Below are positions 22,465 to 26,818 of a DNA stretch of 32,681 bases, one piece after another. The notes beneath the pieces were generated by a model. It worked only from the letters and a program-made list of their open reading frames with translations, did no database searches and was not told the origin of the DNA. This DNA comes from Pirellulales bacterium (GTDB lineage: Bacteria > Planctomycetota > Planctomycetia > Pirellulales > JAICIG01): NCBI GenBank assembly GCA_035533075.1, contig DATLUO010000099.1, forward strand, positions 1 through 32,681. Direction: 5' to 3'. The position numbers were made by a program, and so were the translations under genes. The number at the start of each line of letters is the position of its first letter. The first letter of the stretch is position 1.

Positions 22465-22606
22465 TGGCTGGGGGAATAAAACCGTCGCTTTTGCACGATT
22501 CTAATCGGGGTGCCTGTCCGGGCAAACTTGTTGATTGGCACCGCGGCGCATAAAATGGGATTGCTGGCAACGTCTCTCAACCCTCCTCGCTTTCGCCGGA
22601 GTTTTT

Positions 22607-23629
22607 ATGCTCGATTTCCGGCCCAAAGGCGGCCGAACCACGAACTATTTCGGCCGCTACGAGCAGCGGAAGCTGCTGCTCTTGGTGCTGAGCGTCGGCA
22701 TGGTGCTGTTTCTGATCGAGGAAGCGGCCAACCCTCAGCGCTGGCTGTGGCTGTGGCAGGCCGCGGGGCAACAAGCCGCGCCCGCCAACGACAAGCCGCA
22801 TCGCTTGGCCCAAGTGGAACAACCGCCCGAGCTTCGCCGCAAGTTGGCGCATGACGAATTCGTCGCCGAGGGTGAGGCCAAGGAGACGATTCCGGCCGAC
22901 AAGAAGTTCTTTCCAGGCGTAGAACCTGAATTGCTGGCCCGCGTTCGCGACGACACCGTTTTTCGCGGCGCGGAATCCGACGCTTTTTATCACTTGCTGA
23001 AGATCCTCGACGAAACCAGCGAAGACGACCTGCAACAGGCGTCGATCGGGCCGGTCAGCTTCACGCAACTCTTCACGCAACCCAAAGAGTATCGCGGCGA
23101 CCTCGTGACGGTCAGCGGCAGCGTGCGGCGGGTGCTCGAAAAAGACGCTCCCCAAAACGACTACGGCATCGCCCGATACTATCAGGTCGTGATCGAGCCC
23201 GACGATCGCGCCTATCCGGTGGTGATCTATTCGCTCGGTTTGCCGGACGCTTTTCCACGCGGCGAAAATCTGAATGAGACCGTCCGCGTCAACGGCTTCT
23301 TTTATAAGAGGTTGGCCGGCCTATCGGCAAAAAAGGAGATCATGACCTGGCCGCTGTTGGTCAGCAAAACCCTGCACTGGCAGCCGGTCGTGGCGGCGGC
23401 GCCCGTCGCCGACGAAAAGGCCCATTTCAAGAACCTGGCGAGCGGCCTTGCGCTGGCCATATTGGCCAGCCTGGCAGTGATGCTGTTCTTGTTCATCGGT
23501 ATGCTTCGCAAGACGCGATTTGTGATGCCGCACGCACGGCCCGACCAGCTCGACGGGTTGGCTGACCGCGAAGTCGCGCCCGACGTGCGACAGCGGTTGG
23601 CGGAGCTTGCCCGGCAGGAGCAGCCGTAA
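22607..23629 (+). CDS. unknown protein with two transmembrane helices and a domain shared with its neighbour
   Basis: A 340-aa protein with transmembrane helices at about 22-38 (KLLLLVLSVGMVLFLIE) and 278-301 (SGLALAILASLAVMLFLFIG), so the central ~240 residues should sit on one side, probably the periplasm. The central part contains FYHLLKILDE, then a beta-rich module at about 152-235: LFTQPKEYRGDLVTVSG, YYQVVIEP, VVIYSLGLPDAFPRG and VRVNGFFYKRL. The same module occurs twice in the next gene. I read it as possibly OB-fold-like, but this is inference. ATG 22607 has CCGGAG 6 nt upstream. The gene is followed after 4 bp by its relative, so the two form an operon. I do not recognise a named family; the pair looks planctomycete-specific. 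Confidence 0.8.
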   Translation: MLDFRPKGGRTTNYFGRYEQRKLLLLVLSVGMVLFLIEEAANPQRWLWLWQAAGQQAAPANDKPHRLAQVEQPPELRRKLAHDEFVAEGEAKETIPADKKFFPGVEPELLARVRDDTVFRGAESDAFYHLLKILDETSEDDLQQASIGPVSFTQLFTQPKEYRGDLVTVSGSVRRVLEKDAPQNDYGIARYYQVVIEPDDRAYPVVIYSLGLPDAFPRGENLNETVRVNGFFYKRLAGLSAKKEIMTWPLLVSKTLHWQPVVAAAPVADEKAHFKNLASGLALAILASLAVMLFLFIGMLRKTRFVMPHARPDQLDGLADREVAPDVRQRLAELARQEQP

Positions 23630-23633
23630 GCTG

Positions 23634-25241
23634 ATGTGCTGGATGACGAGCGCAGTTCGCCTTCACGCCGCCAACGAACGTAGGCTGCAGTATCGCTTGG
23701 CGTGGTGGCTGGCGTTCTGCGGTTTGCTGCTGTGCTGCGGTGCCGCTCGTGGAGCGGGAATCGACGATTCGCCGCCGACCCTTGCTTCGTCGCGCGACAT
23801 GCTCAAGTTGCTGGGCGTGCTCGACCGGCTCGATTCGATCAGCGACGACGCCGATTTTCCGCCGCAGGGCGATGAGCTGCTCTGGCGGATGCTGTATGCG
23901 GTGCGGCGGTTTTCGCTGCTCGATCTCCACCGCTGGAAGCAAGACGTGTCGCCGGAGAAAGTCGAGCGCGATCCGGGCCAGATGCGGGGCGCGGTGGTGG
24001 CCTGGCGCGGCAGCGTGACGCGCGTGACGGTCGAAGAGCTGCCGGCGGAAGCCGCCGAGCGATTCGATCTGCCCCGTTACTATCGGTGCGAGCTGGCGAT
24101 CGCGGAAGGCAGTCCGCCGGTGGTGGTCTACTCTTTGGCGGTTCCGCGAGCGTGGCACATCGACGGACCGCTCCATGCCAGGGCTGAAGTGCGCGGTCTG
24201 TTGGTGCGGCTGACGGCCAGCGAGCGTTCCCCGGTCGTGGTGGCGCGGCGCTTGGCCTGGTATCCGGAGACGGTGCTCGGCGACCTGGACATGGACGTGG
24301 GCTTGTTCGACGAGCTAAGTCCGCGGCCCGAGTGGACCGATGACGACCGCGAGTGCTTCTATCAGTTGTTGGCCGCGGCCGGCAGGGCTGGTGCCAGGCA
24401 ACTCGCGCGAGCGGTGCCCAAGAATGGGCGAAACGCGCCGGTCACGCCGCTGTTCAACCGGCCCGACCAACAGCGCGGCCGGCTGGTCGAGTTGACGGGC
24501 ACGGCGCGGCAGGCTGTGCGGGTGCGCGTCGACGACGCCGACATCGTGGCCCGCTTCGGCATCGATCATTATTATGAAATGGAGATCTTCACCGACGACT
24601 CGCAGGGCAACCCGCTCACGTTCTGCGTCCGCGAGCTGCCGAAGGGGTTTCCCGAGGGCGGCAAGATCACCGAGCCGGTGCGCGTGGCCGGCTTCTTTTT
24701 CAAGAAATGGGGTTATCGTCAATCGGAAGCCGCCCAGGGCATGCCGGGCGGCAAGCAGCTTGCGCCGCTGTTGATCGGCCGCAAACCGGTCTGGCTCGAG
24801 ACTCCCCCGGCCGACCAACGCTTCGCCAACGGCGTGTTTCTGGTGCTGTTCGTGGTGCTGACGATCGTGTTGTGGCTCGTGGTCTTGCGATTATCTCGCA
24901 GCGACAGCAAGTTCCATAAGCAGGTTGCCCAGCGTTTCACTCCGCCGCCCACAGGCTCGCTGAATGAAATCGGCCTGGAGGACCATGGCGGCCCGTTCAT
25001 GTTATCTCCGCACCAATCGGCCGCAACGAAAGAATGGGTTCGAGTTTGGAAATCGGCCGGGCCTCGACTGGCTGAAATTGAGCGGCGCGAACTTCGCGAA
25101 ATGACCGAGGCCGACCGGCGCAGGGCAATACACGCGGTGTTGACCCTGTTGCCGGTTTGGACGGATGCCCCGGCAACAAGCGGACTTGTGGAGCAACAAA
25201 AGTGGTTCAGGAAGTTCATGTCCCGCAATCACCCCTCCTGA
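23634..25241 (+). CDS. unknown exported/membrane protein with two copies of the module seen upstream; C-terminal extension
   Basis: A 535-aa protein starting 4 bp after the previous stop. Residues 20-44 look like a signal peptide (LAWWLAFCGLLLCCGAARG). Two copies of the neighbour's module follow. Copy one is at about 96-195 (MRGAVVAWRGSVTRV, YYRCELAI, VVVYSLAVP, ARAEVRGLLVRL). Copy two is at about 269-360 (LFNRPDQQRGRLVELTG, YYEMEIFTDD, RELPKGFPEGG, VRVAGFFFKKW). A transmembrane helix is at about 398-420 (FLVLFVVLTIVLWLVVLRL). After LNEIGLEDHGG the last ~80 residues change character. They resemble a small soluble partner protein of nucleotidyltransferases (see 24999-25241), so the end of the original membrane protein was probably near residue 455. 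The gene overlaps the nucleotidyltransferase by 40 bp. Confidence 0.78.
   Translation: MCWMTSAVRLHAANERRLQYRLAWWLAFCGLLLCCGAARGAGIDDSPPTLASSRDMLKLLGVLDRLDSISDDADFPPQGDELLWRMLYAVRRFSLLDLHRWKQDVSPEKVERDPGQMRGAVVAWRGSVTRVTVEELPAEAAERFDLPRYYRCELAIAEGSPPVVVYSLAVPRAWHIDGPLHARAEVRGLLVRLTASERSPVVVARRLAWYPETVLGDLDMDVGLFDELSPRPEWTDDDRECFYQLLAAAGRAGARQLARAVPKNGRNAPVTPLFNRPDQQRGRLVELTGTARQAVRVRVDDADIVARFGIDHYYEMEIFTDDSQGNPLTFCVRELPKGFPEGGKITEPVRVAGFFFKKWGYRQSEAAQGMPGGKQLAPLLIGRKPVWLETPPADQRFANGVFLVLFVVLTIVLWLVVLRLSRSDSKFHKQVAQRFTPPPTGSLNEIGLEDHGGPFMLSPHQSAATKEWVRVWKSAGPRLAEIERRELREMTEADRRRAIHAVLTLLPVWTDAPATSGLVEQQKWFRKFMSRNHPS
24999..25241 (+). other. possible small partner ORF of the nucleotidyltransferase, in frame with the upstream gene
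   Basis: From an internal ATG at 24999 the last 80 codons of the upstream membrane protein read as a self-contained small helical protein: KEWVRVWKSAGPRLAEIERR, then ELREMTEADRRRA, ending TSGLVEQQKWFRKFMSRNHP. From memory, small proteins with a W-x-x-x-W-x-x-A-G-P start and an S-G-L-V-E-Q-Q-x-W-F end occur directly before nucleotidyltransferase genes, usually overlapping them as here. It may be translated from 24999, only as a fused tail, or both. A GGAGG lies about 17 nt before the ATG, rather far. The open frame and the change of character are seen; the partner role is recalled and inferred. Confidence 0.5.
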
Positions 25242-25800
25242 TCGCGGCCGGCGAGGCGCAAGCGGTTTGCCGTCAGGAGGGTTGGCGCTCGTGCGTTATC
25301 GGTGGACTGGCGGTTCTTCGCTGGGGGCGGCCCCGCGCCACGCGCGATGTTGATTTGAGCCTCTGGACAGGCTTCGGAATGGAGGCGCCGTTTATCGACC
25401 TGCTTCTCCAACGCTTTCAACCGCGCATCGCCGACGCGAAGCGATTTGCACTGGACAATCGAGTGCTCTTGCTCAGCGCCGGTAACGGAACACCGCTCGA
25501 CGTGGCATTGGCCGGTATACCATTCGAAGAGCACATGCAGGACCGTGCGAGTCCCTATGAATTCAGCGACGATTGTCCGCTCGTGACCGCGTCGGCCGAA
25601 GATCTGGTCGTGTCGAAGGCATTCGCCAATCGCCCGCAAGACTGGCTCGATATTGAAGGCATCTTGTCGCTACGGAGCGATGAGCTCGATTGGTCGCAGA
25701 TCGAGGAGGAGCTAGGGCCGCTGGCCGAACTCAAGGAGGCCCCCGAGATTCTTGCGCAGCTAAATCAAGTTCGCCAAGCCACTCGGCAAAAGTCATCCCC

Positions 25801-25804
<4 letters not shown>
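25202..25804 (+). CDS. nucleotidyltransferase-fold protein (AbiEii/DUF1814-like)
   Basis: A 200-aa protein with a minimal nucleotidyltransferase fold. The G-G-x-A ... D-x-D signature is clear: GGLAVLRWG at 34-42, then RATRDVDLS with Asp49 and Asp51. The third acidic residue is probably Asp100 in PLDVALAG. The C-terminal half (TASAEDLVVSKAFANRPQDWLDIEGIL) matches the helical part found in AbiEii-like and related toxin-type nucleotidyltransferases. GTG 25202 is preferred, with GGAG 8 nt upstream; the open frame also contains a TTG at 25157. It overlaps the preceding ORF by 40 bp, and the end of that ORF looks like a typical small partner. The arrangement suggests a toxin-antitoxin-like pair, but nothing here proves toxicity or the transferred nucleotide. 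Confidence 0.82.

Positions 25805-26818
<1,014 letters not shown>

Follow-up and report, generated by a model that had tools for sequence, protein, structure and literature searches.

An antitoxin-like partner of a MenT1-like nucleotidyltransferase joined in frame to the end of a membrane protein in a Pirellulales bacterium

Analysis of a 32,681-nucleotide stretch of DNA from a Pirellulales bacterium (hereafter the window; contig DATLUO010000099.1 of assembly GCA_035533075.1) indicated that a two-gene module resembling the MenAT1 pair was probably inserted at the 3' end of a membrane-protein gene, the small partner gene of the module being joined in frame to its host. The two halves of the resultant reading frame have separate origins, the insertion site is identified, the nucleotidyltransferase (NTase) of the module has its active-site residues intact, and the pairing of NTase and partner extends across phyla. 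Such an in-frame fusion with a membrane protein is a new variant of the MenAT1-like pair, and the locus affords a clear before-and-after view of a toxin-antitoxin-like module entering a chromosome at the end of a gene and taking over the terminus of its host. The relevant features, with the evidence for each, are as follows.

23634..24998, + strand: host part, a membrane protein (homologues in 156/196 genomes; 26-homologue alignment; model)
24990..24998, + strand: junction within the C-terminal motif of the host, GGPF replacing xPDFSxL and stop (GC3 step)
24999..25241, + strand: antitoxin-like small partner of 80 codons, continuing the host frame (87-member family alignment; NTase adjacency; own-genome paralogue)
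25202..25804, + strand: MenT1-like nucleotidyltransferase, 200 aa, DUF6036/AbiEii group (GTG start assumed; PF19502, E = 4e-6)
25877..26818, + strand: malate/lactate dehydrogenase gene, which bounds the insertion site downstream

The host gene, its junction with the tail and the insertion site

The open reading frame that starts with the ATG at 23634 and ends at 25241 comprises 535 codons and passes through a further ATG at 24999 without a stop, exactly as the initial annotation had described: the transmembrane (TM) helix is followed by LNEIGLEDHGG, and then by ATG 24999 and a tail running from MLSPHQSAATKEWVRVWKSAGP to SGLVEQQKWFRKFMSRNHPS with no stop between. An order-wide search located the host membrane protein (residues 1–455) in 156/196 genomes, and alignment matched these residues to the membrane-protein family along their entire length, with 56–60% identity over residues 13–454 to the closest homologue, located in a genome of the same family (L030). 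The tail (codons 456–535) was absent from all 26 aligned homologues, while relatives of it at E ≤ 0.01 were detected in 19/196 genomes of the order. The closest homologue terminates in DIKDHGKPDFSNLG*, and others terminate either in a similar PDFSxL motif or soon after the TM helix; the corresponding part of the window reads LEDHGGPF, then MLSPHQ, and continues after LEDHGGPF as MLSPHQSAATKEW. The host protein is without the PDFSxL-like end of the closest family members and the tail stands in its place, some eight final native codons plus the stop having been lost.

The prior claim that the last ~80 codons are foreign to the membrane protein was borne out both by the complete absence of the tail from the aligned homologues and by the interruption of the PDFSxL-type end; the converse pattern, in which all homologues would carry the tail with no NTase next door, was sought, and homologues devoid of the tail were found. 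The same 0/26 count ruled out that the tail is a domain native to the membrane protein. Relevant GC3 values (membrane part 0.82, tail 0.64, NTase 0.66, next gene 0.90) further indicated that tail and NTase share one composition unlike that of both flanks. The identity of the two joined halves is not attributable to chance.

Modelling of the fused protein yielded a signal helix, two beta ectodomains, one TM helix (~395–435) and a short cytoplasmic end. The second beta domain (258–393) resembled OB folds with Z up to 9.0, a score that common arrangements also reach; the linker (439–458) was modelled with low confidence, and the tail as separate helices with middling confidence. The basic residues that follow the TM helix suggest, by the positive-inside rule, that the tail is cytoplasmic and on the same side of the membrane as the NTase. 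A tandem paralogue of the second beta domain was also noted directly upstream of the membrane gene (22535–23629 of the window), and the same tandem arrangement was seen in other genomes of the order.

The gene on the other flank, which we take from recognition of its sequence to encode malate dehydrogenase, was present in 54/57 genomes searched in the order. Eight other genomes, drawn from five families of the order, have malate dehydrogenase as the next gene after the membrane gene, at a distance of 109–598 bp; the window has the same two neighbours, with tail and NTase filling the gap between them. Since this order of the flanks is common to eight other genomes, the entry point of the module is known and a chimeric contig is unlikely. 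Separate origins of the two halves followed by insertion are supported by the homologues without a tail, a standalone partner elsewhere in the same genome, the empty site in the eight genomes and the GC3 steps.

Several ancillary observations were made at the site. The membrane gene and malate dehydrogenase (window 23634–26818) constitute a conserved pair in the eight other genomes. The nearest relative (G004) was ruled out as an empty site because its two flank genes are on different contigs. A search for direct or inverted repeats that might mark the insertion mechanism returned only short, scattered ones, and a scan of 23400–25800 detected no sigma-70-like site upstream of the module, a result that fits co-transcription, albeit weakly. 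Elsewhere in G004, a genome of the same family, a decayed copy of the module was located (L062:1408–1671, contig C35) in which the NTase is cut to a C-terminal remnant, indicating that the module can be lost; the ATG of its partner is situated ~5 nt past the stop of a sigma-factor-like gene, making this a second module flush with a gene end.

The nucleotidyltransferase and the family of its partner

The NTase frame can begin at GTG 25202, giving a 40-bp overlap with the partner frame inclusive of its stop, which accords with the start previously proposed 40 bp before the end of that stop. Its match to PF19502 (DUF6036) scored 27.2 bits relative to a curated cut-off of 23.6 bits, and the only significant match of the NTase profile among solved sequences was MenT1 (8an4, E = 4e-9). 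An AlphaFold2 model (pLDDT 95) superimposed on MenT1 with a Z of 20.4 and an rmsd of 2.4 over 178 residues; MenT1 chains held ranks 1–3 (Z 18.9–20.4), the next family scoring 11.9. Residues T47, D49, D100, K139 and D150 were invariant across 56 sequences. The residues mutated in MenT1, T39, D41, K137 and D152 (PMC10435456), align with T47, D49, K139 and D150 respectively. As judged from sequence and model, the NTase is a relative of MenT1 with intact active-site residues, and its activity is predicted. No match to it at E 1e-5 was recorded in plasmids and phages.

The distribution of the partner was established by applying a tail profile to 94 distinct loci of close NTases (those with a profile score of ≥150 bits; window left out or counted under its own locus). 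The partner is directly upstream of the NTase in 86 of the 94, and in 45 of these 86 the overlap, counted at the start of the profile, is 4 nt; it is directly downstream, the NTase being first, in three (L072, L098 and L150), and fused in frame to the NTase in one (L107), with two further loci at contig edges and two without a partner. The earlier suggestion that the tail is a small partner of NTases was thereby vindicated, given that the two adjoin in 89/94 loci in either gene order and are fused in one more. By record titles, NTase plus partner loci span at least 12 phyla: Planctomycetes, Acidobacteria, Verrucomicrobia, Desulfobacteria, Elusimicrobia, Chloroflexi, Bacteroidetes, Omnitrophota, KSB1, Hydrogenedentota, Sumerlaeota and Cyanobacteria. 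The fused pair (L107:3776–4567), from a record titled as a Desulfatirhabdium butyrativorans MAG, is a single frame and, as a natural single-chain pair, would be useful for structural work.

Members of the partner family are mostly of 65–90 aa. When numbered from ATG 24999, W17, S61-G62-L63, Q66-Q67 and F70 are nearly invariant among the 87 aligned, and the tail in the window retains every conserved residue (W, SGL, EQQ and F). The family start lies ~10–20 residues before the conserved W, in agreement with ATG 24999; the Shine-Dalgarno-like GGAGG at 24977–24981 is poorly spaced, being 17 nt from that ATG. An initial scan of the contigs with the tail alone as query gave no match, and Pfam, NCBIfam, PADLOC and PHROGs gave no credible match to the tail, the partner family being present in neither Pfam nor NCBIfam. 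The genome that contains the window also has a standalone 87-aa partner ORF that is 79% identical to the tail and is without an NTase (dN 0.10, dS 1.20); the sequence past QQKWF in this orphan (L002:1462–1725, genome G000, contig C130) is unrelated. On this sequence evidence the partner is a widespread small family, so far unnamed, that is paired with MenT1-like NTases, and it would allow inhibition in the style of MenA1 to be tested far beyond mycobacteria.

Interpretation of the fused frame

On the preferred reading, a two-gene module would have entered between the membrane-protein gene and malate dehydrogenase, removing the last codons and stop of the former, such that the membrane protein would now carry the antitoxin-like sequence as a cytoplasmic domain at its C-terminus. 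With no stop between the two parts, translation of the membrane gene would be expected to yield a membrane-anchored partner each time, as a product of ribosomes on that gene; ATG 24999 may possibly give rise to a free copy as well, and translation of the NTase could be coupled to that of the partner at the end of its frame. MenT1 adds nucleotides to the acceptor ends of tRNA. By analogy, the NTase might modify tRNA acceptor ends in the same manner, and the partner would act as a putative antitoxin that, like MenA1, keeps the NTase inactive by covering its active face.

A lesser but appreciable likelihood attaches to the reading that continuity of frame is accidental, the partner being made mainly from ATG 24999, the long product being unstable or the membrane gene little expressed, and the pair otherwise ordinary. 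That ATG agrees with the start position of the family, and the in-frame join alone could be due to chance, about one third of host-stop deletions being estimated to yield this frame. Neither is recurrent selection for fusion visible: at ten other loci where a long frame precedes the partner, no Pfam match to the upstream frame was obtained (0/10), and the longest such frame (L025) is antisense to what we recognised by eye as a tyrosyl-tRNA synthetase-like reading, results that ruled out these frames as further fusions. A weak tail match in a ComEC-like frame at another locus (L027) was unaccompanied by a match to the partner profile. Against an accidental frame, the absence of a separating stop obliges ribosomes that complete the membrane protein to translate the tail, and the spacing of GGAGG from ATG 24999 is unfavourable to independent initiation. 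The fusion, known from one assembly (8.5 Mb in 296 contigs, the window being contig 99), appears to be one isolated event, possibly accidental, in which both partners are apparently intact.

A functional role for the fusion is improbable, though of consequence: an inner-membrane-tethered antitoxin, attached on the cytoplasmic side to a conserved envelope protein, would hold the toxin at the membrane, and loss of the envelope protein, or failure to produce it, would leave the toxin free of its antitoxin. Were this so, a MenT-type toxin would serve as the guard of an envelope component.

It is more doubtful still that the membrane protein has co-opted the tail as a structural domain, with loss of antitoxin action. 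Retention of an orphan partner without an NTase in the same genome would be compatible with such a change, as would the lost native end motif, but an intact NTase overlaps the tail, and the conserved W, SGL, EQQ and F are all in place. Least probable is an assembly or sequencing artefact, with a stop between the two parts in the true genome, for although the assembly is fragmented and a single base error at the junction could open the frame, the shared order of membrane gene and malate dehydrogenase in eight other genomes shows that the flanks belong together, no homopolymer was found at the junction, and the native end motif has gone along with the stop.

Comparison with known systems

The preferred reading, insertion of a MenAT1-like module, invites comparison with several characterised systems. 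PF19502 (DUF6036), to which the NTase matches above the cut-off, is a family with no assigned function. The NTase also distantly matches AbiEii of the type IV AbiE system (AbiEi/AbiEii), with E = 0.005 in Pfam, below the cut-off, and E = 5e-4 in PADLOC. However, instead of a two-domain antitoxin of the AbiEi type, the NTase has as its neighbour a helical protein of only 80 aa, for which no AbiEi match was obtained in Pfam, PADLOC or NCBIfam. Similarly, MenT3/TglT (Rv1045) shares the NTase superfamily fold (Z 11 to 12), but its toxin is larger and its antitoxin, of the COG5340 type, belongs to another family.

The closest resemblance is to MenAT1 (Rv0078B-Rv0078A) of Mycobacterium tuberculosis, in which a short gene likewise directly precedes an NTase of ~195 aa with the same fold, and whose four mutated catalytic residues are conserved here. 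The MenAT1 antitoxin, of 68 aa, consists of a long helix plus a shorter C-terminal helix, and bridges two toxins, the active faces of which it covers (PMC10435456). The partner in the window is likewise helical in its model. Partner profiles built from 13 and 87 members and searched against PDB sequences up to E = 10 recovered no MenA1 chain, and no solved chain there was detectably similar in sequence to the partner. Unlike its counterpart in MenAT1, the partner in the window forms one reading frame with a membrane protein, and the family to which it belongs extends to at least 12 phyla. The pair is MenAT1-like in its fold, active site and gene layout, as read from sequence and model, with a putative toxin-antitoxin role.
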